Source: Eubacteriales bacterium mix99
GTDB lineage: Bacteria > Bacillota > Clostridia > Caldicoprobacterales > DTU083
Reading direction: 5' to 3'
Length of the DNA: 64,000 bases
Assembly: GCA_038396605.1 (NCBI GenBank)
Contig: CP121690.1
Coordinates: forward strand, 2,756,356 to 2,820,355
Below, piece by piece: positions 9,958 through 61,990 of the stretch (the stretch's first letter is position 1; each line of letters begins with the position of its first letter). Under the pieces are notes generated by a model that had not been told where the DNA came from, did not search any database, and saw only the letters and a program-made list of their open reading frames with translations. The translations under genes and the position numbers were made by a program.

Positions 9958-10667
9958 AAGCTCGCCGTCAGGCTCACTATCATTTCGCCAGCGATGTTCG
10001 TGATGGTAAACGTGTCATTCATCATAAGCATTTCCCTCTCAATTTGGTATTGGAACGGGAACATATAGCCCATTTCGCGTAAGTCCTGAAGGGTAAAGTT
10101 TCCTTTATCTTCGACAGTCATACCGGCACTTGCCAGAAGTGCATTTACTTTATCGTCTCGCACTTCATGCTTTACGATAGTGTAGCGACCCGGCTTCTCA
10201 GCTTTTAAAGCACCAATTGCTTTCATTGTTGCGATGATCTTGTCGATGGAGTGGAACAGCGTAGCGCGTTCACCCCATTCATCAAAGATCTTCTGCTTTA
10301 GTTGCTGGAGTGTAAACTCCTTTTCGAATTCGGAGAGCTTACCAATGATCCTCGATACATCTACAAATATCGGATAAGTGGCGAGGATAATACACCAGTG
10401 TGCTGCAAGCGAATTATCAGAATCCTTTTCGATAAGAGCCCGTGCCTGTGTACGTAGAGATTTCGTCTCCGGATTCTCGTAATACCATAAGTTCATCAGA
10501 ATCTCTCTGGTTTTACGTAAGTTTGTAGGACTCTTGATTTCAAAGCTGAGGTATTCATTCAGCCTGTCCTTATATTCTTGTTCTGGCAGATTCTCGGATA
10601 ACAGCTCGACGGCCTTATTAAGCCATGTCATCTTCAAATTTCTCGAAAGTCCGACCATCTTACCCAT
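9954..10667 (-). CDS. brxA: BrxA-like (DUF1819-type) BREX protein
   Basis: 237 residues beginning MGKMVGLSRNLKMTWLNKAV. The middle region (DRLNEYLSFEIKSPTNLRKTR then EILMNLWY) and the helical body resemble the DUF1819/BrxA family, small winged-helix DNA-binding proteins of about 200 residues. The identification leans on its place directly after pglZ, where brxA lies in type 3 BREX operons. It overlaps the pglZ stop by 8 bp and the next gene by 4 bp, so it is translationally coupled to both. Family and position agree, but the sequence match is only moderate. Confidence 0.6.
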   Translation of the reverse strand: MGKMVGLSRNLKMTWLNKAVELLSENLPEQEYKDRLNEYLSFEIKSPTNLRKTREILMNLWYYENPETKSLRTQARALIEKDSDNSLAAHWCIILATYPIFVDVSRIIGKLSEFEKEFTLQQLKQKIFDEWGERATLFHSIDKIIATMKAIGALKAEKPGRYTIVKHEVRDDKVNALLASAGMTVEDKGNFTLQDLREMGYMFPFQYQIEREMLMMNDTFTITNIAGEMIVSLTASL

Positions 10668-12135
10668 TGTTATCCACCGCCTTTATTTTAATAAATGGCA
10701 CGATCACCTCGTCCACCGTTATGCCTCCGTGTGTCATCACCTTGTCACCTTTCGCATCAAAGGATTTCCCAATGTTGCAGATCAAGTAATCGTACTGCTT
10801 GTCAAGAAAGTACTTCGGATACTCGATCATGTCATATTGTTCCTTCATTTTCTCTTTGTCTGCAAACTTCTCCAGAACCAACATACGATGGCTCTTTGTT
10901 TCTGTCTCGACGCCAAGCTTCATCAGTCTCCCCTGACCGACGCATGGAGTATTACCGTGATCAGCTGATATATAGATATCAAAGCCTTTACTGAGTAGTT
11001 TCCGGACAAGTGTCGCGAGCTTTCCGGTACTGGACAGGTATTCCACATCACGATACATGCCAGAGCGCCCCTGCTGTTGACCATGAACCATATCATCTAT
11101 GTCATTGATGATGACGCAACCACACCGAATCGTCGGCCCAAAGTCGGCATCGTATCCTCGATGATATTCAACCTGCTCTTTACGCAGGCCAAAGCTTATG
11201 GCGCAATCGGTGAATTCCTTACCCTCCTTGCTGGTACTCCACGGGCTCAAAAGCTGAAGTGGATATTTGCCGGAAACAAGGCTCTGCCGGGAAAGTGATG
11301 TGATCGTCGGAATCATGGCAAAAGCCGCAGATCGTTCGTACTTTATGTCTCCGAAGCTTCGCGACAATATGGTCCAATCAAATTCTGACATTCCGTCCAT
11401 GACAATAATCACGAACTTGTCACTGTGATTATGTATGTAATCCATCGCGCCCTTGACGAGCACCGGTGTTTCCCGATCTGAAGTAATCTTTCCTGAAAGC
11501 TTGCCGAAGCCTTCAAGTATAAATTTCAAGAATGGTTCCTGTACGAACTCGGCATTCGCGTCGATCTCATAAGCTGCACAGAAGACATCAATCTCGGATT
11601 TTGTCTCCGCGACCTTGATCCAATCCCTATAGTTTTGAGCCTTTTCTGCCATAACAGAGACATCTTTGATACGCTGCTTCACGTATTTGCGAACATTGTC
11701 TCTGCCGTATACAACATTGTCTATGAATTCTTTCGTCTTTTCATACGTGCAGCAATCGTCATAGAGGCCTTTATACGCCATGCAGAGAAGATCAAAGTTC
11801 AGGTCTGCCTTTTCCCGGATGCACTGTGTCTGCAGACGCGGGAAGAGATTCATCAAAGAAATACGAAATATGTAAGAGCCACAAGCCTTCAGAACGTCAT
11901 ATGGTATATAAACCTTTGGCGCTGCGAGAATCAGGTACTTATCCTGGCCGCCTTTGAACTCGTCTTCCCACTCAATTCTAAAGCTCAGGTCATCTTTGTA
12001 GCGAATGATCTGGAAACCTCTGTGCTCAAACTCATCTGTATAGTGCGTCTTTTTTTCAAGGCCGTCCTCATCAATGAAGAGCATGCGTGAAGTGTGGGAA
12101 GCATAAGTTTTTTCATATACATATTGTCCGAACAT
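10660..12135 (-). CDS. pglZ: PglZ, alkaline-phosphatase-fold BREX protein
   Basis: 491 residues from ATG 12135 (GGAGG seven bases upstream, inside the end of the helicase gene; a longer frame begins 30 bp earlier but lacks a ribosome site). The PglZ core shows FVIIVMDGMSEFD (metal ligand D247), a MIPTITSLSRQSLVSG nucleophile region (275-290) and ISADHGN (D392, H393). The N-terminal 230 residues match the family's alpha-helical lead-in. PglZ is a core component of all BREX types and is required for phage restriction and site-specific methylation. It is shorter than many PglZ proteins (700-900 residues), which suits the compact type 3 version. Confidence 0.88.
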   Translation of the reverse strand: MFGQYVYEKTYASHTSRMLFIDEDGLEKKTHYTDEFEHRGFQIIRYKDDLSFRIEWEDEFKGGQDKYLILAAPKVYIPYDVLKACGSYIFRISLMNLFPRLQTQCIREKADLNFDLLCMAYKGLYDDCCTYEKTKEFIDNVVYGRDNVRKYVKQRIKDVSVMAEKAQNYRDWIKVAETKSEIDVFCAAYEIDANAEFVQEPFLKFILEGFGKLSGKITSDRETPVLVKGAMDYIHNHSDKFVIIVMDGMSEFDWTILSRSFGDIKYERSAAFAMIPTITSLSRQSLVSGKYPLQLLSPWSTSKEGKEFTDCAISFGLRKEQVEYHRGYDADFGPTIRCGCVIINDIDDMVHGQQQGRSGMYRDVEYLSSTGKLATLVRKLLSKGFDIYISADHGNTPCVGQGRLMKLGVETETKSHRMLVLEKFADKEKMKEQYDMIEYPKYFLDKQYDYLICNIGKSFDAKGDKVMTHGGITVDEVIVPFIKIKAVDNNG

Positions 12136-12137
12136 TG

Positions 12138-14813
12138 TCACGCCTCCAATCTGACAAGGAGGCACAACCTGAATTCTGGATAGACCTCTTGTCCTTTTCT
12201 ATATCGCTCCTCTACCGTTTCTTTTTCTTTTTCCAGTCGCTGCAGCCGGGATTTTCTGATGTTATCTATGCCCACATGCTCCGTAGCTTCTGTCCGCAGT
12301 TTCAGAGCATACATGTACTTGTCGTAGCTTTCCTTATTTCTTTTTAACTGCTGATCCTTTAATTCAAGAAACGAATCGTACGCAAATTCTGTGCTCAGCT
12401 TTTCGAGCTGTTGATACTCGTCTCCAGTTAGGTTCGGTACGGAACGGATAGAAAGTCGTGACGTTCCATCGAGGAATACATCCATAATCCGCTGCCCGGC
12501 CATTGGCCGCAGCACAAAATCTTTATTGACAAATACGGGAAGTATTCTCTGATCCATTTTTTCATCGGTTACAGACAGATCCCAGAGCATGAAGTAACCT
12601 TCCTCGTTCGGAAAATCCTGAATCGAAACCGACAATATCGGGGAGAATCGATCCTGAATCACGTCTGCATTGAGATGCCGCGTAATGCTCTCGTCATTGA
12701 TACTGATATCCATAATGAGCCGCGGGTCCAATCCCTGCCATGCATCATAATAGGTGAGCATCTGGCGCAGAGCGGAATCCACATCAAAGTTCGATTCCTT
12801 CCCGACGAGCTTCGTCAGGTCTTTGTCTTCATGAAGCAGGCTCTTGTATTTCTGCGCGTTTTTCAGCTCCTGCCGCAGCTCCGATTCTACCGGATATAGA
12901 TTCTCATCGGATTTTCTATGTGGCCTGCTGATCGAGCGCATATAGACATCAGTAAAATCAACTTCCGCGACTTCGCTATCAAGGACATCCGAATACTTAT
13001 CGACGCCCATTTCTTTGAGGATCACAGAGAGCTTTTCTTCCAGCACTTCCCGTACACGGTTTTCAATCGTCTCTGTTACGATGAAATTGAAAATCTGCAC
13101 ATCTCGCGTCTGACCGATACGATCTACACGACCACAGCGCTGCTCGATCTTCATCGGATTCCACGGCAAATCGTAGTTGATGATGATATTCGAGAACTGT
13201 AAGTTCAGGCCTTCGCCACCGGCATCGGTAGAAATAAAGACGTTCGTATTGTCGCGGAATTCCCGAAGTGCCTCGTTACGCTCTTCGATACTCATCCGTC
13301 CATTCAGGATTGTCGCTGTATATCCCATAGTCGTTAGCAGTCGCTGGAGATATTCCTGCGTAGCCACAAATTCCGTAAAGATGATAATTTTCTGGTTTCT
13401 ATCTGCGTTTAGGAGAGCGTCTATCGTATTCTCCAGCGTTTCGATTTTTACATCCGGGTGCTGGAACTCCGCCTGCTTTGCAACCGCGATAATATTCTCC
13501 AGCTCGCTGATTTCTTCTTCCATATCGAGAGACATGGCTTGAAGTGCATCCTCAACGTCATCTTCAATATCTAGCTCCGCCAGATCTTCTTCGGTAAGAG
13601 AGCCAATCTTGGTATTCTGGGTTTTCAAGATTTCAAGCCGCCGTTCGAGGCTCTGACAGATTGCTGCTGTGCTGCTTGTCACCATGCGCTGCATTATGAT
13701 AAGCAGGAAAATCAGGCACATATTTTTCTTGCGGTTCCGGAGTGCCTTGTTATAGGTCTTCGAAACGTAGGACGTGACCATCTCATAGAGCTGTCTTTGA
13801 TAGGTATGCCGTTCGTCCCAGGTCAGCTCGACCAGATGTGTGACACGGTTCTTAAACAGCAGATTTCCGTTATTGTCTATAGCCTCGCGCTTCTCTGTAC
13901 GGATCAGGAACGGAGCAACCTGTTCCTTGACTACGGATTTTGCGTTCGGAAAGGCATCCTCGTCAAGCAGGCGGACCAGCCGTAGGAAAGGTTCGGTCTT
14001 GCCGTTGTGCGGCGTGGCTGTCAGGAGCAGCAGATATGGGCTTGCCTGCGAAAGTAGATACCCGAGCTTATATCTTGCCACTTCACCGGAAGAACCAGCA
14101 ACACGATGCGCCTCATCGATGATGATCAGGTCCCAGCCGCTGTTAATGATGGAATAAATGCGCTCCTGGTTATATTGCTCGACGCGCTCCTCTGTCCACC
14201 CGGCATGTTTTTCGAGAGGCTTGATGGAATCCATCGGCGAGATGACTTGATCGTACTGCCCATAGACATCATCGCTGTCCGTAAGCCTGCGAATCGTATC
14301 GTAGTCCGACGGCAGAATCACCTGAAACTTCTCGTGGAATTTCTCCTGCATTTCCGCAGACCACTGCGTTACAAGGCCGGTCGGGCAGACCACAAGCGTC
14401 CGCCTGACCAGTCCTCTTGCTTTCAGTTCCTTGATGACCATGCCAGCCTCGATCGTTTTCCCGAGGCCGACCTCATCCGCCAGAATATAGCGGATGTTGT
14501 TTGTGGACATCACACGATTCAACACATGCAGCTGATGCGGCAGCGGAATGACACCGCTGGCAAGAGAAGTCAGGAGTCCTCCTGCAGTTTCGTTTTTAAT
14601 CTTTGACAACAACGTGACATAGCGCAGATAATTCTCGTCGTAAGTATTCGAACCGGACGAATCGCTCAAGCTGTCCGCCATCACCTTATAAACAGTTCCA
14701 GTGGACGAATCAAAGACGCGATAGGATACATATCCCCACACTTCGAGGCGTTCAAGAACCTGTACACTTTTTCCCGTATTCCTGTCAAAGGCGAATTCAC
14801 CTGCCTTCAGCAT
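12138..14813 (-). CDS. brxHII: BREX helicase (BrxHII-like, SNF2/DEAH superfamily 2)
   Basis: 891 residues. An N-terminal RapA/HepA-like beta region (1-90) precedes motif I DEVGLGKT (113-120), TLVVCPTGLVTQW (Ia region), DEAH at 233-236, LLLTATPHNG (motif III), and the C-terminal lobe with IIFTEFVATQEYLQ, STDAGGEGLNLQ and QRCGRVDRIGQ (motif VI). This is the DNA translocase of type 3 BREX; DISARM helicases are related, but no DUF1998 or phospholipase D partner is present here. It ends 2 bp before pglZ. All helicase motifs look intact. Confidence 0.88.
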   Translation of the reverse strand: MLKAGEFAFDRNTGKSVQVLERLEVWGYVSYRVFDSSTGTVYKVMADSLSDSSGSNTYDENYLRYVTLLSKIKNETAGGLLTSLASGVIPLPHQLHVLNRVMSTNNIRYILADEVGLGKTIEAGMVIKELKARGLVRRTLVVCPTGLVTQWSAEMQEKFHEKFQVILPSDYDTIRRLTDSDDVYGQYDQVISPMDSIKPLEKHAGWTEERVEQYNQERIYSIINSGWDLIIIDEAHRVAGSSGEVARYKLGYLLSQASPYLLLLTATPHNGKTEPFLRLVRLLDEDAFPNAKSVVKEQVAPFLIRTEKREAIDNNGNLLFKNRVTHLVELTWDERHTYQRQLYEMVTSYVSKTYNKALRNRKKNMCLIFLLIIMQRMVTSSTAAICQSLERRLEILKTQNTKIGSLTEEDLAELDIEDDVEDALQAMSLDMEEEISELENIIAVAKQAEFQHPDVKIETLENTIDALLNADRNQKIIIFTEFVATQEYLQRLLTTMGYTATILNGRMSIEERNEALREFRDNTNVFISTDAGGEGLNLQFSNIIINYDLPWNPMKIEQRCGRVDRIGQTRDVQIFNFIVTETIENRVREVLEEKLSVILKEMGVDKYSDVLDSEVAEVDFTDVYMRSISRPHRKSDENLYPVESELRQELKNAQKYKSLLHEDKDLTKLVGKESNFDVDSALRQMLTYYDAWQGLDPRLIMDISINDESITRHLNADVIQDRFSPILSVSIQDFPNEEGYFMLWDLSVTDEKMDQRILPVFVNKDFVLRPMAGQRIMDVFLDGTSRLSIRSVPNLTGDEYQQLEKLSTEFAYDSFLELKDQQLKRNKESYDKYMYALKLRTEATEHVGIDNIRKSRLQRLEKEKETVEERYRKGQEVYPEFRLCLLVRLEA

Positions 14814-14848
14814 GCATTGCCACCTCCAAAAATATGCAGTTCAAAGCT

Positions 14849-17392
14849 TCACTGCACGCGGCTCAAACTGATGTCGTAGTACATCAGCAGCTTATCGTCT
14901 TCCTGAATGGTCTGCTCCGGCAGCCGCTCAGCCATGTCGACAATGGCCTGATAGTTCTTATCCTTCCAGAGCCTTGAGAAACCTACTCGGATCGCCTCGG
15001 AACGGAACAGCTTCAGTTTTCCTTTGCTGTTCATATAGCTCTCGAATTCCTTCCAGAGGTTCTTTTCACGTAGCTTAGCAACATCGCCTTCCTTTGTGCG
15101 ATCTGGAATATACCAGCGGCCTTTATCATCCTGAATGAAGTTCTCGTCCAGCATGACGGACAGCTCCGGCATGTCTTCATAGCGGTCGACAGACTTCACT
15201 TCCTGCATAAACTTCGGCTGGAGTTCTGCGTACGTCTGCGGTGTATCGAGCTGCTGATAAAGCCATGCGATAGCAGATTTCTCATTCGAAACAAACAGCT
15301 CGAACTGAATCGGCTCAACATCCATCTTGATGCGGGCAATATCATATTCGTTCACCTGATCTGGCAGGAAATACATGCCGTCGCGCTTCAGGAACTTCTC
15401 ATCCAGTCCCTTATAGAAATCCGTCGCATCAATCGGAACCGGAATGCCGTTCATGATGTGGTATGCAACCATGCGGTCAAAAAGCAGGTACGCCTGACGC
15501 TCTGCAATAATGTCGATCTTGCCATCGTGGTCGGAATCCACAACGACAGGAAGATTAGCAAGATGCTGCCGGACAAACGCCCACGCGGTTTCTTCGGTTC
15601 CGGCCTTTGACTCAAATTCCTTGCGGAACTTTTCCTTGGGCTTGTAAGCCGAAATAACAAGATCCTGCTTCACTGCAGAAGTGTTATTGACCTGCTTGAA
15701 GCTGCCTTGCTTTTTATCAAGAGTACGGACATCAGCAATTATAAAACCGGCTCTCCCAAGGCTCTCTTGAATCGCATTCCACACTGCATTCTTCGAGTTA
15801 TGAAATTCAACAGTCATCCACCTGTTCGGTTTCAGAACTCTGTAGAACTCCAGAAAACAGTTCGTCATTAGACTCTGATATTCAGCAATACCTTTCCCTT
15901 GGACATCATTTACAATAGCCTCTGCTTTATTACGGGTTAACACATTAAGCCAAGACTCCCAAATAAAGCTAAGCTCTGAATAATTTAAATTGTCCCCAAA
16001 TGGCGGATCGGTAAAAATGTAATCCACAGTGTTATTGGGAATCGTTTTAAGCTGTGTAGAAGAAGATGTCTCACATAGAGCTCCTCGAAACGTATGGGTC
16101 ATCTGAAAGACTTTTTGAAAATCTTTAAATTTCCCTTCTACAGCTTTTATTACATCGCCTTCAGCAGAAAGGGAAGGTAAATAAAGCGTTCCGCTAAGAA
16201 CTCCATTCCCGCGCTTTCCCATGTTATAACGAACAAGTTTGGAAACCAGGCCAGGATTTACTGATTCGACTACAATTCTGAATCTTGATGTTTTTGACTT
16301 CTCATACAATGCTGAGAGCACATAAAGATTTCGTTTTGTATAGAATTGGTCCACATTTGTAATTCCGTATTTGTCATTGCGCCGGGATTCTCCCCCCTCG
16401 CACATCCTGTTATGTGGGTAGGGATAGGGTATTGTTAAGGCATCAATCTTTTTTAGTAACTCTAAATCTGCCTCATCAGGTTTTTTCTCATATCGCTTCC
16501 CTGCGTAAAGATAATTGATTAACACGGGAACCTGCCTGCTCATTGTATGCGTAGTCTTCAGATTCTCGTCAAAAACGGTCATTACTGCGTTTTGACAGTC
16601 TCTTTTTGTTAGACGAACGCCGCATGAAGGACAAGTGAACTCGTTGTTTACTTTTTTGTTTTTTGCATCGACAGCAACATCCCAAAATACGAATTCATTT
16701 CCACAATGTGGGCAAACAAATACATCAGACCACACTGTATAGTTAATTCTCCCCTTAGGTTTCATTTCCGCGGATAAGAACGATACAGAGGAATCTGAGG
16801 AATGTGCGGTTTCGTACATCCAACCACACTCCTTTTCGACTTCTTGTAGTATTTTTTGACCTTCTTCAACAAAAGCTGTTATATCTACGAGGCTGTTATA
16901 ATTGTATGTAATATAAGTAGCTACAGGTGACAGGTCATTCAGAATGGCATTCCTACGTCCCCAATTGTTCTCGTCAGCTTTCAACTCTTGTTGCAGCATG
17001 TAATTATCGGTACCACACATCTGAGCAGCGACACCAGTCATTCCTGTTCCGCAAAATCCATCAAAAACAATATCGCCTGGCTTGGTGTAATGGAGAATGT
17101 ATCTCATTATTGCTTTGTAAGGCACCTTAGTATGGTAAGTATGTGCCATATAAATAGGATCGTTCTTTCCCTCGCTGACATCAGACGCAAACGGCTCGCG
17201 ATGATAATCATCCGTCTCCTCGTCGTAAGGAGTCCCGTTCTCCGCGATGAATTCCTTAATAAACGGATTCGGGCATGCGGTGTAATATGGCGCATCGGAG
17301 AGCGCAATGATGTCCTCGTCCGTGCCGATCGGGAAGCCTTCTATATCGCGGACCTTGTCGAGATCCTCCTTGGTCAGTTTTCTCTTCTCCAT
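14849..17392 (-). CDS. pglX: BREX adenine-specific DNA methyltransferase (PglXI type)
   Basis: 847 residues. AdoMet motif I is VFDGFCGTGMTG (109-120). A zinc ribbon is inserted (C227, C230, C254, C257: CPHCGNEF...CPSCGVRL). Catalytic motif IV is TDPPFGDNLNYSE (461-473). The large insert between motif I and IV and the zinc ribbon are typical of the DUF1156-related methylases of type 3 BREX. Expected role: N6-adenine methylation of a non-palindromic site on host DNA so that unmodified phage is recognised. It follows the ATPase gene with a 4-bp gap. Confidence 0.87.
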   Translation of the reverse strand: MEKRKLTKEDLDKVRDIEGFPIGTDEDIIALSDAPYYTACPNPFIKEFIAENGTPYDEETDDYHREPFASDVSEGKNDPIYMAHTYHTKVPYKAIMRYILHYTKPGDIVFDGFCGTGMTGVAAQMCGTDNYMLQQELKADENNWGRRNAILNDLSPVATYITYNYNSLVDITAFVEEGQKILQEVEKECGWMYETAHSSDSSVSFLSAEMKPKGRINYTVWSDVFVCPHCGNEFVFWDVAVDAKNKKVNNEFTCPSCGVRLTKRDCQNAVMTVFDENLKTTHTMSRQVPVLINYLYAGKRYEKKPDEADLELLKKIDALTIPYPYPHNRMCEGGESRRNDKYGITNVDQFYTKRNLYVLSALYEKSKTSRFRIVVESVNPGLVSKLVRYNMGKRGNGVLSGTLYLPSLSAEGDVIKAVEGKFKDFQKVFQMTHTFRGALCETSSSTQLKTIPNNTVDYIFTDPPFGDNLNYSELSFIWESWLNVLTRNKAEAIVNDVQGKGIAEYQSLMTNCFLEFYRVLKPNRWMTVEFHNSKNAVWNAIQESLGRAGFIIADVRTLDKKQGSFKQVNNTSAVKQDLVISAYKPKEKFRKEFESKAGTEETAWAFVRQHLANLPVVVDSDHDGKIDIIAERQAYLLFDRMVAYHIMNGIPVPIDATDFYKGLDEKFLKRDGMYFLPDQVNEYDIARIKMDVEPIQFELFVSNEKSAIAWLYQQLDTPQTYAELQPKFMQEVKSVDRYEDMPELSVMLDENFIQDDKGRWYIPDRTKEGDVAKLREKNLWKEFESYMNSKGKLKLFRSEAIRVGFSRLWKDKNYQAIVDMAERLPEQTIQEDDKLLMYYDISLSRVQ

Positions 17393-17396
17393 AGTT

Positions 17397-20300
17397 TTAA
17401 TTCTCCTTACGCTTTACGACGATACGCAGCTTGCTTTCATCCTTGCCTCTAGTGTAGGAAGCGATGATATCGTTCAGCTTCTTACGGAAGTTATCTTCAC
17501 TGAGCGGCTGTAGCTGTTCGAGCTTTTCCACCAGCGTTTCCGCGTCGATGACCACAGGCTCGAATCCCTTCAGAAGCGCGGTGATGCTCTCTACGAAGAA
17601 ATCATCTACTCGTTTCGGCAGCTCCTTGGAAGAAACGAAGTCGTCGATTACTTTCTGCTGGTCATTACTCAAGTACTGCTTCTGCGCGAGCACGAGCGGA
17701 TCAGTGACGGTTTCCAGCAGCTTCTTTGTCCATTCCTTCGTCAGCTCATCAATGCCGTCATCGATCTGATCCAGCAGTCCATGAACATTTCTCTCATGGC
17801 TGCTCATATCGAAATGGCAATGCGGGCAGATCGGATTCTTTTTCAGTTCGTTCGGTGTCAGCTCATAGCAGACTTTAATATTCGCCATTGAGGTTTCAAG
17901 GTCGGAAAGCTTCGCGCCGGGCAGGATTGTGATGCTATGCAGTTTCCGGAGATTCTTGAGTGCAAGACTCTCCTGAATCTTGCCTTTGCGCTGTGCGTCC
18001 TCTATGCCGAGACGTTTCTTCAAATGCGCATCGTAGTAGAGATTGATGTACTGCTGCTGAACCGGCTCCAGCGCATCCTTCACCGCACGGGCTGCGTCCG
18101 TACCAGCGGTACCCTCCGCGATGCTGTCTCTGGCCGTACGGAAAGCTGCACGCGCATCTTCGATGGAAGCTTTCAGCTCCTCAATGTCGAAGTTCTGGAT
18201 ACTGGCGATATAGCCAACGAGATCTCCGCATTCGTTCTTGAAATCGAGGTACTCAGGAATACGGCGCAAAGTCCAGATCTGCTTCTCGATTTCCTGAATC
18301 TCATCCATCGTGTGGCGGAAATTATTCAGCTTCGCAAAAGTGTTGAACTTCGCTGAGTAGTTGCTGAATTCCTCCTTGACCTTGTCGCAGGCGCTCTGCA
18401 TCCTCGCCTTCATCTGCGAATCGGCGAGCGGCTCTCCCCACAACTCGAAACCGTCAGAAAGTTTTCTCGTTCCGAGAACTGCATCACTGCAGAGATTCTG
18501 TGCGGCCTGAATAAGCTGCTTGACACCATTATCTCTGTCCTTCGGAAGATCCAGGAGCGCAGGATTGAGGCCAAGCACCTCGAACATCTTCTTGAGCTCA
18601 GCAAGAGCCATCTTTGCCGGGCGGGAGATATACTTAAACTCATAGAGATCAAGCGCATTTGTGCTCGGGATCTCGTCCAGATTAGATGCCGTGATTGTCT
18701 TGCCGTTGTTCAGTGTAATGACTGCGTATCCCGCGTAGACAAGCGACAGGAAGATGATTGGCGTAAACAAGAAGCTGATCTTAAATTGCTTGTCGATATA
18801 CACACCCATGAATTGTTCTTCAAACAGGTCTGTATAGTTCAGCACGCCCTGCGGTGGCAGCTCCTGCAGGCGATCGATATAATATCTGGCGTACTTTGAG
18901 TTTTCCGGTTTTATCTTGTCATCCTCGAGTACACCAAAACTCTCAAGCATCATCCGCGCCTGCTGCGTCTTCCGGCCTGCAAAATAGTCAAAGGAATCCC
19001 GTGCCAGCCCCGCCATGTTCTTGCGGGTGACTCTGGTCTTCATGACCGGGAAATCCTTATATTTGTTATTGAAGTACTCGTCAAGGCAGATCGAAGCCGC
19101 AAGGTCGATCGTGTCCTTAAATGTCAGATCTGGTCTGTACTTACCCTTGAGGACTTCGATCAGCTGCCGCATCTGAGCCTTGTAGGTCACATTGAAGCAG
19201 GTGTTCTTGTTGTCGCTCAGATATTTTACAAGCTGGCGGTTGAACATCTTCGCCTTGTTCAAATATGCTTCCTTATCTTTTCCTTCGCTGATTTCAGCCA
19301 GCTGATTTGCAGCAGCATAAAGTTCAAGATTCTTCTTGAACTCATCCGCAGAGCGGAAGAAGAAGTATACCTCGTCCGGGAGATTAGCAATATCCACATT
19401 ATCGTTGTCATAAGGCGGCATGATGTGAATATAGAAATCGCGCTCCGGCTGGGCAGTGCTGCGCTCTCCCGGAAGTCCCATAAAGAGATAGCCTTCCCGG
19501 AAGATATTGTGGCTGTTCCAGTTCAAGTCGTATTCGTAAATCTTAAAATTCGTGACGTATTCCTTCGCGTCCCATTCAAGGCAGTTATAGACAACCGTGT
19601 AGAAGTATCGGTTCAGTTCTGCTGGAGCCAGCAGTGATGCCTTCTGGTTGATCTTTTCATCGTAGTCAACGATTTTGTCGACATCGATATAGTACTGATT
19701 GTTGGCATCATTATGGATAATGAACTGTCCAGAGACCGTTGTCATGATGTCCTTGAGTGTTGTATTGACAACGCCAAGGAGAAAGTCTGCATCGTTTTCC
19801 GGCATGGAGTCCAGATAGAGGCAGAGGTCATCTTTCAGGTTTTCTGCCGTCAGTCCGAACTGCACATCGAGGCCGTTTGTCGTTAGTCTGTGCACGCTAA
19901 GTGCGTAGATGATCTGAATCGCCAATGGTTTATAGACCTTGTGTGGGAATGACCGGTTGATAATCTCCTCCAGCTGTGTGCTGGCATTCACGACCTTGCT
20001 GATTGTGACGTCACTTTTCAGAAGCCCATTTCCCTTGATCGCAGGCCAATAGGTGTCGAAGGAATAGATTCCCGGTGCATCTTCCGGTACGTCTTTATCG
20101 AAGATGTCACGGATGACCCTGGAGATGTTTTTCAGGATATGGCGGTTCTCCACAAGATAGACCTTATTGAACACATCTATATAGGCCGGGTGAATGGGGA
20201 ACAGATCCACAAACTCATCCATGCGAGTAGACATGCCGCTGTAAAGGCTGGAAAACTTCTCGAGGTGATTCCGAATCAGAGCCTTCTGTTCCGGATTCTT

Positions 20301-21086
20301 CTTCAGGATTCTTTCTGAAACAACATATTCCGTATCCTCTTTTGTAATTTCCATCTGTGTGAAACGGTCACTGACGTGCTTCAACGTTTCAGAGACAAAG
20401 CTGAATTTCGGATTGTCGAAGATCTTTTCCTGAATGCCAAGAATGATACGGAGATTGCTCTTGGAGCACATTTCTCCGAATGCACGCAGCACTTCCAGGT
20501 CAAGAACCAGCTGACGTTCGTCTCTGGATGTCAGGTAGGCAAGGAACTCATCGACGACAATCAAATACCCCTTGTCCGGATACTTTGCATTGAAGGCTTC
20601 CATCATCTGCCGGATGACCTTCTTGTTGTCGCGGACCGTCGAATAGTCTGGTTTCTTGAAGTCAATGCCACGACGCTGGAAATCCTCTTCAATGTAGTCA
20701 AAGAGAATATCGTAGAGCGTCATGGTAACGCCACCGATTTCCAAACGGAGGATCTCAAACTTACCCGCGACCGGCTCCATGCGTTTAGCAAAATTCTGGT
20801 TCTGTAGATATTGAAGATTGCCTGCGTCATTGGCCACAGCAGAAATCACACTCATCAGGTGAGATTTACCTGTACCATAGTTACCTACGATGAAAACGCC
20901 TTTGTTGTCGACCACCTCATCCATCTGGAGCTGGTCGATCACCGGAGCCTGCAGACTTTCCGCCATGCTGTCCGACATGACATAGGTCTGCACGAGTTCC
21001 TTGACTCCGCTTTGTGTTTTTGTGCCCTCAACAAGCTGTATCGTCGATTCGATTGGCTTGAAGCTGATTAGCTCTGAATACTTCAT
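17397..21086 (-). CDS. brxC: BrxC-like P-loop ATPase (DUF6079-type)
   Basis: 1229 residues with Walker A VGNYGTGKSHLM (68-77) and Walker B YLIVVDEFLAYL (174-185). A long helical body follows, then a CPHCHFD zinc-knuckle-like pair and a basic C-terminus (KLRIVVKRKEN). Length and motifs fit the BrxC/PglY ATPases present in every BREX system. By family knowledge it is the large AAA+ organiser of the BREX complex. It sits between the brxF-like gene (15 bp) and the methylase (4 bp), so expression is coupled. Confidence 0.87.
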   Translation of the reverse strand: MKYSELISFKPIESTIQLVEGTKTQSGVKELVQTYVMSDSMAESLQAPVIDQLQMDEVVDNKGVFIVGNYGTGKSHLMSVISAVANDAGNLQYLQNQNFAKRMEPVAGKFEILRLEIGGVTMTLYDILFDYIEEDFQRRGIDFKKPDYSTVRDNKKVIRQMMEAFNAKYPDKGYLIVVDEFLAYLTSRDERQLVLDLEVLRAFGEMCSKSNLRIILGIQEKIFDNPKFSFVSETLKHVSDRFTQMEITKEDTEYVVSERILKKNPEQKALIRNHLEKFSSLYSGMSTRMDEFVDLFPIHPAYIDVFNKVYLVENRHILKNISRVIRDIFDKDVPEDAPGIYSFDTYWPAIKGNGLLKSDVTISKVVNASTQLEEIINRSFPHKVYKPLAIQIIYALSVHRLTTNGLDVQFGLTAENLKDDLCLYLDSMPENDADFLLGVVNTTLKDIMTTVSGQFIIHNDANNQYYIDVDKIVDYDEKINQKASLLAPAELNRYFYTVVYNCLEWDAKEYVTNFKIYEYDLNWNSHNIFREGYLFMGLPGERSTAQPERDFYIHIMPPYDNDNVDIANLPDEVYFFFRSADEFKKNLELYAAANQLAEISEGKDKEAYLNKAKMFNRQLVKYLSDNKNTCFNVTYKAQMRQLIEVLKGKYRPDLTFKDTIDLAASICLDEYFNNKYKDFPVMKTRVTRKNMAGLARDSFDYFAGRKTQQARMMLESFGVLEDDKIKPENSKYARYYIDRLQELPPQGVLNYTDLFEEQFMGVYIDKQFKISFLFTPIIFLSLVYAGYAVITLNNGKTITASNLDEIPSTNALDLYEFKYISRPAKMALAELKKMFEVLGLNPALLDLPKDRDNGVKQLIQAAQNLCSDAVLGTRKLSDGFELWGEPLADSQMKARMQSACDKVKEEFSNYSAKFNTFAKLNNFRHTMDEIQEIEKQIWTLRRIPEYLDFKNECGDLVGYIASIQNFDIEELKASIEDARAAFRTARDSIAEGTAGTDAARAVKDALEPVQQQYINLYYDAHLKKRLGIEDAQRKGKIQESLALKNLRKLHSITILPGAKLSDLETSMANIKVCYELTPNELKKNPICPHCHFDMSSHERNVHGLLDQIDDGIDELTKEWTKKLLETVTDPLVLAQKQYLSNDQQKVIDDFVSSKELPKRVDDFFVESITALLKGFEPVVIDAETLVEKLEQLQPLSEDNFRKKLNDIIASYTRGKDESKLRIVVKRKEN

Positions 21087-21101
21087 ATTGGCGTTTCCTC
21101 C

Positions 21102-21521
21102 TTAAATGACACAGGTGATGTCATAGTTCTTTACTTCATATGCTTTATAGTCCTGGTACCCCTGCTCGCTGTAATAAAGCGTTCCATTTTCATATCGTCC
21201 CGGCCAGATTACGCTGTACGGTTTGCTCTTCCGAGCCTCGGTCAGTATTTTCAAAACGTCGACCTGATAGGCCGGGTTGAACATCACGTCGATATCTTTG
21301 ATGACCACGTTGTCCGGATACTGTGCGAGCACGCTTTGAAAACAAGATGCAAGCCTCATTGTCCGGCTCCTCGGCGATACGTCCTGCAGTTTTTCCGAAA
21401 GCGGTTTGCTGACAGATATCGGCTTTGAAGACAGCTCTCGTATTCGTGTCCAGTAAATGAGAAGCCGGGAAATGGTGTTTTTTTGTCTTTGGAGATTTCC
21501 ATATTTAATAATCTCGCCCAT
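21102..21521 (-). CDS. brxF: BrxF-like protein lacking a visible P-loop
   Basis: 139 residues. The C-terminal half (VVIKDIDVMFNPAYQVDVLK then ILTEAR...YSVIWPGRYENGTLYYSEQGY) looks like the end of BrxF proteins of type 3 BREX, including the WPG and Y-E-G/Y-Q motifs. BrxF is normally a small P-loop protein. Here no GxxxxGK[ST] is present in residues 1-60 (ISRLLIYWTRIRELSSKPIS instead), so nucleotide binding is doubtful, or this is a degenerate subfamily. First structural gene of the operon, 15 bp after the XRE gene. Identification rests on position plus C-terminal similarity. Confidence 0.6.
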   Translation of the reverse strand: MGEIIKYGNLQRQKNTISRLLIYWTRIRELSSKPISVSKPLSEKLQDVSPRSRTMRLASCFQSVLAQYPDNVVIKDIDVMFNPAYQVDVLKILTEARKSKPYSVIWPGRYENGTLYYSEQGYQDYKAYEVKNYDITCVI

Positions 21522-21536
21522 TTCAATCCGCCTTCC

Positions 21537-21749
21537 TCATTTTGCCTCTTCGTTCGTCATTTCCATTATGTCACTGACATCACAATCCAAGGCAACGCAT
21601 ATCTTTTCTATGATCTCTGTATTCACATTTTCATTTTTTCCAAGTTTTGTTATTGACGCCGAGCTAATACCGGCAGCCTTCTGTAAATCCTTCTTTTTCA
21701 TATCGCGATCTATCAGTAGTTTCCACAATTTCTTATAGCTAATGGCCAT
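21537..21749 (-). CDS. XRE-family HTH repressor of the BREX operon
   Basis: 70 residues from ATG 21749 (MAISYKKLWKLLIDRDMKKK), with GAGG upstream; longer in-frame starts run through the promoter and are rejected. It has a classic Cro/CI fold: KKDLQKAAGISSASITKLGK as the HTH, then IEKICVALDCDVSDIMEM. It is a single-domain regulator of the type often found with restriction or BREX genes. It is the first gene of the minus-strand operon (15-bp gap), so it probably controls its own promoter and perhaps the divergent one. Confidence 0.82.
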   Translation of the reverse strand: MAISYKKLWKLLIDRDMKKKDLQKAAGISSASITKLGKNENVNTEIIEKICVALDCDVSDIMEMTNEEAK

Positions 21750-21791: not shown

Positions 21792-21820
21792 ATTATACAC
21801 ATTCTGCGATGCAAAATCAA
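21792..21820 (-). promoter_or_regulatory. sigma-A promoter of the XRE-BREX operon
   Basis: On the minus strand TTGATT (21820-21815), a 17-bp spacer, then TATAAT (21797-21792), followed by the XRE start about 42 bases downstream. This is a near-consensus promoter. Confidence 0.75.
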
Positions 21821-21834
21821 GATTTAATCAAGCG

Positions 21835-21844
21835 TTCGCGCGAA
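21835..21844. promoter_or_regulatory. Candidate operator between divergent promoters
   Basis: TTCGCGCGAA is a perfect 10-bp palindrome midway between the -35 elements of the BREX promoter (21815) and the module promoter (21861). It is suitably placed for a dimeric XRE protein to control both directions. Function inferred from position only. Confidence 0.4.
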
Positions 21845-21860: not shown

Positions 21861-21889
21861 TTGATTTATGCACAAACTTTTGATATACT
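21861..21889 (+). promoter_or_regulatory. sigma-A promoter of the kinase/GNAT/ASCH module
   Basis: TTGATT (21861-21866), 17-bp spacer, TATACT (21884-21889), preceded by TG-rich bases. A GGAGGTGG ribosome site and ATG 21939 follow. Confidence 0.75.
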
Positions 21890-21938: not shown

Positions 21939-22457
21939 ATGATCTTTATCAGTGGCATTCATGCGGTCGGCAAAGGCTACTTCTGTGGCCTTGTAAAAAA
22001 GGAACTGGGTATCGAGGCGTATTCGGCAAGTGATCTGATTGCAAAGGCACGTAATGCCAGTTTCAGTAGTGACAAGCTGGTCGCCGAAATAGAGGAAAAC
22101 CAGCAGTATTTACTCGCCGCCGTGCAAGAGCTGCGCGAAAGCGGTAGCGATTTCATTCTTGACGGGCATTTCTGCCTCATCAACAGGAGCACTGGCGAAC
22201 CGGAACGGATCTCGCTTGAGACGTTCACCACGCTCAAGCCGGAAGCCATCGTATTATTGACTGAGAAGCCGAAGGTCATCGTCGAACGCCGCAAGACACG
22301 CGACGGGATCGATGAGACACCTGAGTATGTAGAACAGTTTCAAAACATGGAAAAACAATACGCCAATGAGGTCGCCGAGTTACTGAATGCGAAGCTGTTC
22401 ATCTCGACCGGCGCAGCTGATCTCGAGTCGGCGATTGACTTCCTGAGATCCCTATAA
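21939..22457 (+). CDS. P-loop kinase-like ATP-binding protein
   Basis: 172 residues from ATG 21939 (TAGGAGG nine bases upstream). Walker A is FISGIHAVGKGYF (3-15). A Walker B-like element DFILDGHFCL matches the DG-x pattern of nucleoside/adenylate kinase folds, and a LID-like arginine cluster VIVERRKTRDG follows. Such proteins are often labelled AAA or adenylate-kinase-like. The substrate cannot be read from the sequence. It opens a three-gene operon with the GNAT-PUA-like and ASCH proteins, with short gaps and a shared promoter, next to BREX. Inferred role: phosphorylation of a nucleotide or modified base within a defence or nucleic-acid-modification module. Confidence 0.7.
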   Translation: MIFISGIHAVGKGYFCGLVKKELGIEAYSASDLIAKARNASFSSDKLVAEIEENQQYLLAAVQELRESGSDFILDGHFCLINRSTGEPERISLETFTTLKPEAIVLLTEKPKVIVERRKTRDGIDETPEYVEQFQNMEKQYANEVAELLNAKLFISTGAADLESAIDFLRSL

Positions 22458-22469
22458 GGAGGAAATCAT

Positions 22470-23567
22470 ATGGCAGGTAAATTCATTCACAAGCGATTTG
22501 CTGACATAGATATCAACGATCCCTTCTTCGACTCATTAAAGAGAGACTATCCGGGCAGCGCAAACAGTACTGAATTCACAAAGTGGTTCGCCAAGAAAGC
22601 AGCAGAAGGAAAGGAAGCCCTCGTCTTCGAAGATGAGCAAGGTGTCGGCGCTTTCGTTAATCTGAAGCCAGGTGAAACGGAAGAGATCAAACTTTCAAAT
22701 GGACACGTTCTTCCGTACGACTCTCGCTTAAAGATTACGACGATCAAGATCGACGAACGGTTCCAACATCAGCGGATTGGCGAAGGCGCACTGGGATTGA
22801 CATTATGGGACTGGAGAGATCAATGCGCTAACGAGATCTATGTTACAGTCTTCGAGAAGCATACCAGCTTAATCTTCCTGCTTGAAAAATACGGATTCAA
22901 TTACGTTGGAGATAATCTTAACGGTGAACGCGTCTATATCAAGGACCGCAGAAATTTGGACATTAGCGATCCATGCAAGGCGTTTCCATTCATCAGTGGC
23001 AGGATGAGCCATGCCGGATGCCTTGCTATTAATATGGAATATCACGATACCATGTTTGCCTATTCAGAACTGGCAAATACGCTGCAGGAGCGCGTCGATA
23101 TCAATGTTGCAAATGGTCTGAAGAAGGTCTATATTGGAAGTCCTTATAGTCTCGCTTTCAAAGCTGGTGATCCCGTCCTTATTTATCGAAAGTATACCGG
23201 TAATGATGGCAGACCCGGCTATAAGTCTGTTATAACCTCATACTGCATTGCTACCCGAGTTGAGAAAATAAAAACTCAGGGACAGTTCTTACATTCGTTT
23301 GATGAGTTTCTTCACATCGTTGGAAACAAGTCGGTCTATACCAAGTTTGAACTAAAGAATCGGTATGATAATGAAAAGAATCTTACTGTAATCGAACTTC
23401 TTTACTGCGGTTATTTTGGCGCAGGCAATAATGTCAATTGGAGATGGCTCAAGGATAATGACCTCTGGCCGGGAACCCACCCGATGAATTTCCGATACAC
23501 AAGAAGTCAATTCGAGAAAATTCTACGGGAGGGAAATGTTGATGTCGACAATGTTATTATCGATTAA
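22470..23567 (+). CDS. GNAT acetyltransferase fused to a PUA-like (EVE/ASCH-type) domain
   Basis: 365 residues. Residues 1-160 form a GNAT fold: substrate-side LKITTIKIDERFQHQRIGEG (acetyl-CoA loop RIGEGA, about 103-108), then ALGLTLWDWRDQ and IFLLEKYGFNYVGD. Residues 180-330 are beta-rich with FKAGDPVLIYRKYTGNDGRP and ITSYCIATRVEKI, the layout of PUA-like domains that recognise modified bases or RNA. GGAGG at ideal distance from ATG 22470; 12 bp after the kinase gene. By domain logic the protein may bind a nucleic acid or nucleoside and acetylate it or a protein. I know no characterised homolog. Confidence 0.7.
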   Translation: MAGKFIHKRFADIDINDPFFDSLKRDYPGSANSTEFTKWFAKKAAEGKEALVFEDEQGVGAFVNLKPGETEEIKLSNGHVLPYDSRLKITTIKIDERFQHQRIGEGALGLTLWDWRDQCANEIYVTVFEKHTSLIFLLEKYGFNYVGDNLNGERVYIKDRRNLDISDPCKAFPFISGRMSHAGCLAINMEYHDTMFAYSELANTLQERVDINVANGLKKVYIGSPYSLAFKAGDPVLIYRKYTGNDGRPGYKSVITSYCIATRVEKIKTQGQFLHSFDEFLHIVGNKSVYTKFELKNRYDNEKNLTVIELLYCGYFGAGNNVNWRWLKDNDLWPGTHPMNFRYTRSQFEKILREGNVDVDNVIID

Positions 23568-23913
23568 GCCAGAATACGCTAAAGTCATTCTTGATGGACA
23601 AAAGGAATACGAATTTCGAAAACGCCGATGTAAAACCGGCGTCAATAAAATTGTTTTCTACTCCACGGCTCCCGAAAGCAAGGTCGTCGGAGAAGCTGAG
23701 ATTGAGGACATCATAGAAGGAAGCCCTTCTAAAATCTGGGAGCTGGCTAAAAAAGCTGCCGGAATTACGCGGGCAAAGTACCGCGCCTACTATCACGGCT
23801 ATCACAACGCCGTGGCTTACAAACTGAAAAACGTAGTCGTCTACGACCCTCCAAAAGAACTGTCGGACTACGGGATAGATCATGTTCCACAATCTTTCAT
23901 CTACTTGGACTAA
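23542..23913 (+). CDS. ASCH-domain (PUA-superfamily) protein
   Basis: 123 residues beginning MSTMLLSIKPEYAKVILDGQ, followed by KEYEFRKRR. The SIKPEYA..IL.G.K..E.RKR signature is diagnostic for ASCH domains, as is the later VVGEAEIEDI strand. ASCH proteins bind RNA or nucleosides; one characterised relative (YqfB) hydrolyses N4-acetylcytidine, which is notable beside an acetyltransferase. Start 23542 is chosen because GGGAGG then has normal spacing; ATG 23536 would be too close. It overlaps the GNAT gene by 26 bp and is therefore coupled. Confidence 0.82.
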   Translation: MSTMLLSIKPEYAKVILDGQKEYEFRKRRCKTGVNKIVFYSTAPESKVVGEAEIEDIIEGSPSKIWELAKKAAGITRAKYRAYYHGYHNAVAYKLKNVVVYDPPKELSDYGIDHVPQSFIYLD

Positions 23914-23921
23914 ACTTATTG

Positions 23922-23953
23922 TCGCGCTGTATGAAAATGCAGCGCGATTTTTC
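23922..23953 (+). terminator. Rho-independent terminator of the kinase/GNAT/ASCH operon
   Basis: TCGCGCTG (23922-23929) pairs with CAGCGCGA (23940-23947), 10-base loop, followed by TTTTTTC. It closes the three-gene module and separates it from the next transcription unit. Confidence 0.85.
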
Positions 23954-23960
23954 AGCCTCC

Positions 23961-23989
23961 TTGACATCGGTTTTTCTTTTTGATACACT
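23961..23989 (+). promoter_or_regulatory. Consensus sigma-A promoter for the XRE/ImmA genes
   Basis: TTGACA (23961-23966), 17 bp, TACACT (23984-23989). The operator-like repeat at 23998 lies just downstream of the -10, so bound repressor would block initiation. Confidence 0.8.
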
Positions 23990-24039: not shown

Positions 24040-24423
24040 ATGGCTGGTGAATTTGGAAAGTTTATCGACGAAAAACGCCGAGGGCGTGGTCCGGACGGAG
24101 GAGACATCCTGCTTAAGGACATTGCCAAGGCTATGGGTGCGACGCCCACCTATTTATCCGACATCGTTAAAGGACGCCGGAACCCACCCGAAATGTCCAT
24201 GCTCCTGAAGATCTCCGATGTGCTTCACCTCTCTCCCGAGGAGCAGGCCCAGATGTTCGACCTTGCCGGACGGGACAGAAATGAAGCTGCCCCTGATCTT
24301 CCTGAATACATCATGGATGAGAACCTGCCGCATGTCCGCGCTGCTCTTCGGAAAGCCAACGACAAAGGTCTCAGGGATGATTTCTGGAAGCAGGTCTATG
24401 ACGCAATCGACAAGAAGGAGTGA
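24040..24423 (+). CDS. XRE-family regulator
   Basis: 127 residues. HTH region: ILLKDIAKAMGATPTYLSDI followed by VKGRRNPPEMSMLLKISDVL (23-65), then an acidic linker and a helical tail. AAAGGAGA precedes ATG 24040. It forms a pair with the ImmA/IrrE-type protease 9 bp downstream, the arrangement used by ICEBs1 and many prophages in which the protease cleaves the XRE repressor. Here both genes point in the same direction as the replication genes, so lysogeny control may differ from the classical divergent cI/cro layout. Confidence 0.85.
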   Translation: MAGEFGKFIDEKRRGRGPDGGDILLKDIAKAMGATPTYLSDIVKGRRNPPEMSMLLKISDVLHLSPEEQAQMFDLAGRDRNEAAPDLPEYIMDENLPHVRAALRKANDKGLRDDFWKQVYDAIDKKE

Positions 24424-24432
24424 TCCTATCGT

Positions 24433-25146
24433 ATGGTAAATGACGTATTTCTCAGCAACCTTGTCCCTCACATGTACAAGTCTGAATTTGATGACCGGGC
24501 TGCTGATTTTCTCTCGCATTACTGCAAAGAGGCGCTGGAAAAGCCGATGCCCGTCCCTATCGAGGATATCGCCAGGCATCAGCTTCACATGGCCATTCTG
24601 GAAGTTCATCTCAGCGAAGATCTGAGCATTCTCGGTCAAACCTGCTTTACAGACGGTCTCGCAGAAATCTACGATCCCGAAAACGACGAATACAGAGAGA
24701 TTCCGATAAAAGGCGGAACCATGCTCATCGATCCGGACACGTTTCTGAAGCGAAACTTCGGAACCAAGAGGAATACCATCGCCCACGAATGCGTCCACTG
24801 GGTATACCACAGAAGATACTATATCGCCGCCAACCGGCTCGGCAATAAGCAGAGCATTGCCTACAGGGAGCCTGCCGGAATCGGTTATGACACCCTTCCC
24901 AAGAAATGGTCTGACGAAGACTGGATGGAATGGCAAGCCAACAACATCGCTCCTCGCATTCTCATGCCTAAGCAGACTGTCGGTAAAGCCTTCCAGATGG
25001 TACTGGATCGGAGCAAGGAGAATTCATTTGTTTCTGCCGGACTTGTCTCCAAGGGAAAATGGGTGATCGAGCAGTTCGCTGGCTTCTATCAGGTCTCAAA
25101 ACAGTCCGCTGCAATACCCTTACAGGAGCTGGGCTACCTTTCCTAA
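24433..25146 (+). CDS. ImmA/IrrE-family metallopeptidase
   Basis: 237 residues with the zinc-protease motif TIAHECVHW (H118, E119, H122) following an N-terminal helical region. A later EDWMEWQANNIAPRILMP segment (the third ligand region typical of this family) and a C-terminal helical domain complete it. In related elements the enzyme cleaves the partner XRE repressor to trigger induction. Immediately downstream of the XRE gene and probably cotranscribed from 23961. Confidence 0.87.
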   Translation: MVNDVFLSNLVPHMYKSEFDDRAADFLSHYCKEALEKPMPVPIEDIARHQLHMAILEVHLSEDLSILGQTCFTDGLAEIYDPENDEYREIPIKGGTMLIDPDTFLKRNFGTKRNTIAHECVHWVYHRRYYIAANRLGNKQSIAYREPAGIGYDTLPKKWSDEDWMEWQANNIAPRILMPKQTVGKAFQMVLDRSKENSFVSAGLVSKGKWVIEQFAGFYQVSKQSAAIPLQELGYLS

Positions 25147-61570: not shown

Positions 61571-61990
61571 ATGGGACACACACCATACGGATACAGAACC
61601 GAAAACGGCAAAGCGGTCATCGACGAAGAGAAAGCCCAGCAGATAAGAAACCTCTACAGGAACTACCTTGACGGAATGGCGCTTGCCAGGGCTGCGCACG
61701 AAGCAGGAATCGAGACGTGGCACGGCTCGGCAAAACGCCTGCTCGAAAACAAGCACTACCTCGGAGACGACTACTATCCCGCCATCATCGACCAGCAAAC
61801 CTACGACAGAGCACAGGCCGAACGCCTGCGCCGGGCAAAGGTGCTCGGACGGACGAACAGGAAAAAGCAGTCGCCGGATACACGAAAGCCGCCAACCCGG
61901 TTCAAGCTCGCCGCTCCTGAACAGGCCTACGACGACCCGAAGCAGCAGGCGGAATACCTGTACAGCCTGATTGAAAGCGAGGCACGGTGA
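61571..61990 (+). CDS. Recombinase-domain accessory protein (middle gene of trio)
   Basis: 139 residues, [20 protein letters not shown] then [20 protein letters not shown] and a [11 protein letters not shown] end. It has only the recombinase domain, no catalytic Ser domain, like 2069-2485. Start chosen at ATG 61571, 5 bp after the previous stop; its end overlaps the next start (TGATG). Confidence 0.85.

Follow-up and report, generated by a model that had tools for sequence, protein, structure and literature searches.

A three-gene module at positions 21939-23913 of a 64 kb window (the whole stretch of DNA analyzed here, from the 3.13 Mb single-contig genome of Eubacteriales bacterium mix99) is a member of the described GNAT-EVE/ASCH family, and it is probably a mobile module of the toxin-antitoxin type, in which a GNAT acetyltransferase fused to an EVE/PUA-like domain (GNAT-EVE) is predicted to be the toxin, an ASCH protein the antitoxin, and a kinase-like protein an accessory. 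We consider this the best explanation because the GNAT-EVE and ASCH genes show a fixed overlap, are near-constant partners, are carried on mobile DNA, and bear public labels as toxin (GevT) and antitoxin (GevA). The gene set itself has been described before; what seems new is that close relatives of the module are found repeatedly beside the control gene of different anti-phage modification systems. The closest public match of the window is an uncultured Clostridia contig (L009; loci are numbered with the prefix L), whose GNAT-EVE protein is 100% identical.

The earlier note on this DNA, made from its letters alone, had proposed a compact three-gene operon with its own promoter and terminator, and both parts of that proposal held up, with open reading frames (ORFs), gene order and domain matches in agreement. 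All three ORFs lie on the forward strand, in the order kinase-like, GNAT-EVE, ASCH. The first (21939-22457, +) encodes a 172-aa, adenylate-kinase-like P-loop protein of the AAA_17 family (Pfam AAA_17, E 6.8e-17), the second (22470-23567, +) a GevT-like predicted toxin made up of a GNAT part (residues about 1-163) and, joined to it, an EVE/PUA-like C-terminal domain (about 181-365), and the third (23542-23913, +) a 123-aa ASCH protein, a GevA-like predicted antitoxin (PADLOC PDC-M11B, E 1e-42). The ASCH gene starts at an ATG at 23542 or 23536, and overlaps the GNAT-EVE gene by 26 nt (32 nt from 23536). A promoter-like site (21861-21889, +; TTGATT-17-TATACT, with TG before the -10 hexamer) precedes the module, and promoter-like hexamers occupy the equivalent place in aligned relatives; the promoter scan found 11 sites in all against a shuffle mean of 4.5, so that one site alone is weak evidence. 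An intrinsic terminator hairpin followed by a T run (23921-23948, +; -20.1 kcal/mol, z -4.85) closes the module, and was not listed by a consensus terminator scan. Transcription of the three genes as one unit is supported.

Profile scans with GNAT-EVE recovered 164 relatives from the genome collection and 137 from the viral collection, of which the best 80 each were kept; near-copies are many among the viral loci, so that locus counts are not independent. Counted over all loci, 72 of the 80 genome loci and 78 of the 80 viral loci have an ASCH gene directly beside GNAT-EVE and in the same orientation. For 154 of the 167 loci scanned (plasmid and phage records included) the position of the ASCH start could be determined, and 150 of these 154 share the relative frame, with an overlap of 23 nt in 96 loci, 17 nt in 24 and 29 nt in 18. 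Because the pair recurs across phyla and mostly overlaps in one relative frame, the two genes belong together, beyond chance. Module relatives are carried by phages, prophages and plasmids, GNAT-EVE and ASCH also occur in archaeal metagenome-assembled genomes (MAGs; L021, L030), and the pair of the Escherichia phage PhiR47_2 is present at >=99% identity in 274 of 5426 complete E. coli genomes, in all cases on the chromosome. Tight linkage of two genes on mobile DNA, as in toxin-antitoxin systems, was thus found.

The earlier note knew of no described system of this composition, which is contradicted by several prior records. The available excerpts of Bell et al. (2020, PMC7641849) describe (PIN)-GNAT-EVE operons in which ASCH is almost always present and an AAA_17 ATPase often, predict them to be toxin-antitoxin systems, and credit an earlier description to Iyer et al. 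2013. The operons of Bell et al. have in common with the window module a GNAT with a C-terminal EVE-like domain, ASCH as the second gene, frequent AAA_17 genes and carriage by prophages, but differ in the PIN domain, of which the window has none, and in that the window lineage is divergent from BREX or restriction-modification (R-M) genes led by an HTH_26 gene. PADLOC profiles for the pair already exist under one candidate name (PDC-M11A, PDC-M11B), and in GenBank PV340567 (PhiR47_2) the pair, located beside cI of a lambda-like phage, is named GevT toxin and GevA antitoxin; literature searches over the top-listed papers, one of them dominated by unrelated matches, found no basis for these labels. 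The PhiR47_2 pair is homologous to that of the window (GNAT-EVE 32% identity over 98%), with the same order and overlapping genes, and differs in its location at cI and in having no kinase match within the 9 kb stretch examined.

For residue-level comparisons, alignment rows (from L009 on) were restricted to single unsplit matches above a length limit and without X, having at most 70% of 5-letter words in common with any earlier row. This filter passed 101 GNAT-EVE, 103 ASCH and 36 kinase rows; L009, identical to the window, was removed from all three sets, L011 and L037 from the ASCH set, and L049, L070 and L076 from the kinases, and the window was added, for final sets of 101, 101 and 33 rows, respectively. 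The GNAT-EVE protein matches PDC-M11A over its full length (residues 6-364, E 2e-66) as well as PHROG 6345 (E 1.7e-57), and its AlphaFold2 model has a mean predicted local distance difference test (pLDDT) score of 92.3, with the C-terminal part mostly confident. The GNAT part matches 1wwz (PH1933; Z 15.0, root-mean-square deviation 2.8, 145 residues aligned) and Naa50 (Z 14.2), and Gly104, in the acetyl-CoA loop by position, is invariant in all 101 rows; His192 and Lys219 of the protein are likewise invariant. The domain identities given in the earlier note are upheld for the kinase-like, GNAT and ASCH proteins, and for the EVE/PUA-like part only by way of relatives. In the window protein, neither the GNAT nor the PUA-like part had a Pfam match; EVE was detected in 5 of the 101 full-length proteins at E<=0.01 (best 5.3e-4) and in 13 of the 48 rows that make up the C-terminal alignment at E<=0.1 (best 0.0032; other families at most 2), the window segment giving none. 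A PDB profile search with the C-terminal part found no relative, and its profile comparison with ASCH gave nothing useful (probability 8%). A fold search with the whole model returned GNAT folds only, a search in which the C-terminal part was barely tested, so that missing EVE rows are uninformative. In a quick tree of the 101 proteins the window sequence falls in a group of 27 rows on a long branch with support 100. EVE proteins were found in 3 of 196 genomes of the class and were not used as a comparison set.

For the small partner, the closest solved structure and sequence relative is ZmASCH of Zymomonas mobilis (5guq/5gus). The window protein matches Pfam ASCH (E 3.1e-4), its model has a pLDDT of 95.9, and ZmASCH is its best PDB match, with a template modeling (TM) score of 0.89 by query length and a profile E of 3.9e-21. 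According to the available part of the ZmASCH report (PMC5615036), this protein is a nucleic-acid binder with weak cleavage activity on single-stranded RNA, in which mutations implicated Tyr47, Lys53 and Ser128. The Tyr and Ser of this RNA cleft are kept in the window protein: counted on the profile alignment, Tyr47 corresponds to Tyr40 (101 of 101 rows) and Ser128 to Ser118 (100 of 101). The two differ in length (148 aa in ZmASCH against 123 aa) and in Lys53, which is not conserved at the matching alignment column.

These comparisons bear on the view of the earlier note that the module writes and then erases or reads a mark, with GNAT-EVE acetylating a nucleic-acid base and ASCH removing or recognizing the product, a scheme to which we now give only a small chance. 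The idea of acetylated DNA bases goes back to Iyer et al. 2013, as reported in the excerpts of Bell et al. (PMC7641849), which also describe EVE domains as binding modified bases and some ASCH domains as predicted to do so; furthermore, the ASCH protein YqfB hydrolyzes N4-acetylcytidine (ac4C) with Thr24 as nucleophile and Lys21 as base, Glu74 and Arg26 also taking part (PMC6972931, as far as the available text goes). The window protein shares the ASCH fold with YqfB and keeps Lys21 and Arg26, but the position of the catalytic Thr24 is Glu in 101 of 101 rows, the window included, and the structural match to YqfB is poor (TM 0.57-0.60, E 3e-3 to 5e-3) compared with that to ZmASCH. Erasure of ac4C by ASCH is therefore unlikely, YqfB-type erasure was set aside on the Thr24 replacement, and the make-and-erase part of the earlier proposal, in so far as it relies on a YqfB-like ASCH, is not supported; the same evidence counts against erasing by the YqfB mechanism and not against reading. 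Altogether, the ASCH comparison points towards RNA binding rather than ac4C erasure. In two close relatives (L014 4177-4554, L015 3519-3902), a second, different ASCH-like gene stands divergent from the module, in the place of the HTH_26 gene, and carries the same Lys-x-x-Glu-x-Arg motif.

The kinase-like protein falls under the cut-off of the NCBIfam adenylate kinase model PRK04040 (7e-8) and weakly matches PADLOC VakA (9e-5). Its profile (A6) is related to solved adenylate kinases (7owe_E, 2.6e-8; 1ki9_A, 2e-6), the best structure match being a designed particle protein, and we take the closest adenylate kinases to be of the archaeal type. Residues invariant among the 33 rows include G6, G11, K12, G76, H77, R121 and D122. 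The Walker A motif reads GKG in place of GKS/T; since L043, L046, L077, L081, L083 and L100 have GKG too, we set aside its reading as a loss of kinase function. Of the three genes, whose co-occurrence elsewhere the earlier note had made a condition of its proposal, the GNAT-EVE/ASCH pair is near-constant, and the kinase was found next to GNAT-EVE in at least 34 of the 80 genome loci (preceding it in 19, following it in 13 and divergent in 2) and at least 16 of the 80 viral loci (preceding it in 10, following it in 6), counts that are lower bounds because the kinase profile for the locus scan was built from two sequences. On the quick tree of 101 rows, the presence and position of the kinase changed at least 21 times, against a shuffled mean of 36.6, with none of 200 shuffles so low; the kinase thus behaves as an accessory, repeatedly gained or lost and yet in part inherited. 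A kinase of adenylate-kinase type would also suit a housekeeping role of the module in nucleoside metabolism, which we regard as highly improbable, as GNAT-EVE is sparsely distributed (9 of 391 genomes of the class and 2 of 30 of the order, with this genome counted) and is carried by phages and plasmids.

Under the toxin-antitoxin reading, GNAT-EVE would be a toxin-like acetyltransferase whose EVE/PUA-like domain brings the GNAT part to nucleic acid, RNA being probable and charged tRNA conceivable. The ASCH protein, made from the overlapping frame right after it, would restrain GNAT-EVE by binding either GNAT-EVE itself or the same RNA, the adenylate-kinase-like protein may serve as an optional regulator or nucleotide sensor, and the unit would probably act in phage defense or in retention of the carrier element. 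A GNAT acetyltransferase beside a small partner gene is also found in TacT and AtaT, the GNAT toxins of type II toxin-antitoxin pairs with a ribbon-helix-helix antitoxin; the window module differs from these in its fused EVE-like domain, its ASCH partner, and the antitoxin-like gene coming second.

Several observations weigh against the toxin-antitoxin reading. ASCH is not adjacent in 8 of the 80 genome loci and 2 of the 80 viral loci: it lies about 1 kb downstream in L023 and L073, upstream in L116 and L117, and on the other strand a few kb off in L056, L057, L059, L065 and L069, and no ASCH gene was found in L041. The weak RNase activity of ZmASCH (PMC5615036) suggests that ASCH could be the effector instead, and the EVE assignment of the window protein comes from its relatives and from the available text of Bell et al. 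(PMC7641849). A literature search of limited depth found no toxicity or neutralization test of a GNAT-EVE/ASCH pair, and tRNA as the target is put forward by analogy. In prophage Lj965 (L004 3289-3864), four tRNA genes (Ser, Glu, Tyr, Phe) lie directly upstream of GNAT-EVE, an arrangement that is not general; a tRNA gene was present in just 1 of the 45 viral loci scanned (of 80), and tRNA genes were dropped as a target hint for this reason.

The earlier note had also placed the module divergent from a BREX operon, and the BREX genes (9954-21521) are indeed found behind a regulator gene of the Cro/C1-type HTH_26 family on the reverse strand (21537-21749, -, likely ATG at 21749; Pfam HTH_26, 2.3e-20; our searches used gene ends 21755 or 21758). 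They comprise brxF of BREX type 3 (21102-21521, -; NF033453, 3.2e-19; PADLOC BrxF, 3.7e-20), brxC/pglY (17397-21086, -; Pfam DUF6079 and PADLOC BrxC, both E 0), the methyltransferase gene pglXI (14849-17392, -; PADLOC, E 0), the helicase gene brxH (12138-14813, -; best PADLOC model BrxHI, 7.6e-299), pglZ (10660-12165, -; 1.8e-74) and brxA (9954-10667, -; 1.4e-52), and from strand and spacing we infer a single operon together with HTH_26. No module protein matched a BREX model in PADLOC at E<=1, their matches being solely PDC-M11A, PDC-M11B and, weakly, VakA. Within the BREX set, the helicase scores 992 bits with BrxHI against 253 with BrxHII, amid type-3 BrxF, PglXI and BrxA, and BrxHII is the helicase given for type-3 BREX in the accessible portion of PMC12839542; PglZ measures 500-501 aa, and its best stretch covers 283-639 of the 641-position profile, which indicates that its N-terminal part is short or lost.

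The link of the module to defense loci, suspected in the earlier note, is supported in this lineage. Apart from the window and its copy, blastp located an HTH_26 homologue divergent from the module in 12 loci, with 78-89% identity to that of the window (100% in L090, a locus nearly identical to the window); L011 and L012 look like one locus. The genes behind HTH_26 were tested in seven loci, and all seven had BREX or R-M genes. Blastp identified BREX in L090 and L017, and PADLOC was used for the other five. Of these, L010 has type I genes for restriction, specificity and methylation; L011 and L013 each have a type I methylase; L033 combines a PglXI-like methylase with a type II methylase and a type IIG enzyme; and in L091 a type III methylase is accompanied by a DrmD-like helicase. 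By eye, the beginning of the sole ORF behind HTH_26 in L012 resembles that of the L011 type I methylase, and in L018 and L019 an ORF at this place begins as the L010 restriction gene does; in L022 and L094 the sequence behind HTH_26 is too short. The far side of the module is phage in L017 and L091-L094, and looks like other chromosomal genes in L010 and L013 (by eye). The L010 module looks damaged, because the kinase match is truncated, a 1.3 kb gap intervenes, and the ASCH match is poor. That a module-divergent HTH_26 gene precedes BREX and type I, III and IIG R-M genes in Clostridia and their phages is apparently new, and the type I neighbors of this lineage are exceptions to what the excerpts of Bell et al. 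(2020, PMC7641849) state, namely the absence of a link between GNAT-EVE and type I R-M.

The control region between the two divergent genes contains a promoter-like site for HTH_26 and BREX (21792-21820, -; TTGATT-17-TATAAT) and, between it and the promoter-like site of the module, a candidate operator (21828-21843), a palindrome with 5 of 8 positions paired in the window; five relatives have 7 of 8 paired. The aligned site reads TCCTGCGATTGCAGGA in four loci, TCTTGCGAACGCAAGA in another and TCAAGCGTTCGCGCGA in the window, its position between the two promoters is maintained across the aligned intergenic regions, and like sites were seen by eye upstream of some HTH_26 genes without the module. 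No single locus is significant against shuffles: the five 7/8 sites were matched by 7 to 16% of shuffles, and the best palindrome of the window intergenic region (6/8, reached by 208 of 300 shuffles) lies elsewhere than 21828-21843. The shared operator of the earlier note is only partly supported, as an aligned site kept between promoters and not as a palindrome that clearly beats shuffles in any one locus. Because the module is sited divergently on the control region of an HTH_26-led BREX or R-M operon, the same regulator may set its expression, and shared control of the module and the HTH_26 operon is a plausible inference. A stronger version, which seems to us rather unlikely as it stands, is a guard wired to restriction, in which HTH_26 would bind the shared control region and, upon infection, a change in the regulator or in the state of the R-M or BREX system would release a translation-stopping GNAT-EVE toxin. 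A translation-directed effector linked to an R-M locus is known in PrrC, an anticodon nuclease within the hsd locus of the type I R-M system EcoprrI; the target of the window module is predicted, and its linkage differs in being divergent, with a putative functional tie.

It is quite possible, if not quite probable, that the module is instead a stand-alone mobile cargo that happens to lie beside HTH_26-led defense operons, sharing neither control nor function with them. HTH_26 was found at 28 places in 24 of 391 genomes of the class, the window included, and 20 of these places were fetched at length (stretches of 4-18 kb). In 16 of the 20, an R-M, methylase or other PADLOC defense match follows (blastp and PADLOC; L222 rests on a GajB-like helicase match), while the listed following genes of L219, L226, L229 and L230 gave no defense match. 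HTH_26 by itself often leads defense operons. None of the 20 stretches had a GNAT-EVE, ASCH or kinase match, and therefore the module is an optional addition to HTH_26-led operons and no necessary part of them. The genome itself holds a second, 86% identical HTH_26 copy (L217 4111-4356; C1:1462140-1462346), followed by a type II methylase gene and with the module absent. Relatives from the same group as the window (L014, L015, L016, L020, L024-L027), as well as most other loci, lack a divergent HTH_26 gene, which speaks against the defense link, and the lack of a significant palindrome in any single locus also agrees with independent cargo. Against independence, the divergent arrangement recurs with four kinds of defense system and with varied far-side genes, and the site between the promoters stays aligned.

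On its other side, the module is at what is probably the edge of a prophage. An XRE regulator and an ImmA/IrrE-like protease gene (24040-25146, +) follow, with their own promoter-like site (23961-23989), and ten proteins scanned downstream included phage exonuclease, polymerase, helicase, terminase, head and tail proteins and a serine integrase; the order of module, XRE, ImmA and phage replication genes recurs in L017, L089 and L091-L094. Presence of GNAT-EVE in phages and prophages, together with the spread of the PhiR47_2 pair in E. coli, would also fit an anti-restriction role, suggested for phage GNAT-EVE in the available text of Bell et al. (PMC7641849), by which a phage would escape restriction by the host through modification of its own DNA or a block of host functions. 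This we judge to be unlikely, as the module of this lineage travels with restriction, beside BREX or R-M genes, and a near-constant ASCH partner fits a pair in which one member is held in check. Elsewhere in and around the window, where the ends of the prophage were looked for, a stretch of about 2.06 kb to its left (L240 from 12000; G000:C1:2749999-2752054) is probably an insertion sequence, and since it recurs at five more places in the genome with 99-100% identity, the left flank looks mobile itself. A 519-aa ORF (60006-61565) precedes the serine integrase gene (61987-63558), a 182-nt repeat of 71% identity being common to both, and recombinase pieces (resolvase, recombinase, zinc ribbon) occur in separate ORFs at the left end (493-2072); these repeats and pieces are perhaps nested mobile elements.

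Taken together, gene content, overlap, conservation and linkage are observed, from which toxicity, neutralization, target, the role of the kinase, co-regulation and a defense function of the module are predicted. GNAT-EVE/ASCH operons were predicted in 2020 or before, and range from E. coli prophages to archaeal MAGs; the tie of one lineage to the control gene of several modification-based defenses gives a concrete setting in which a trigger may be sought. If the guard reading were true, the module would provide a second, abortive layer joined to BREX and to R-M systems of types I, III and IIG.

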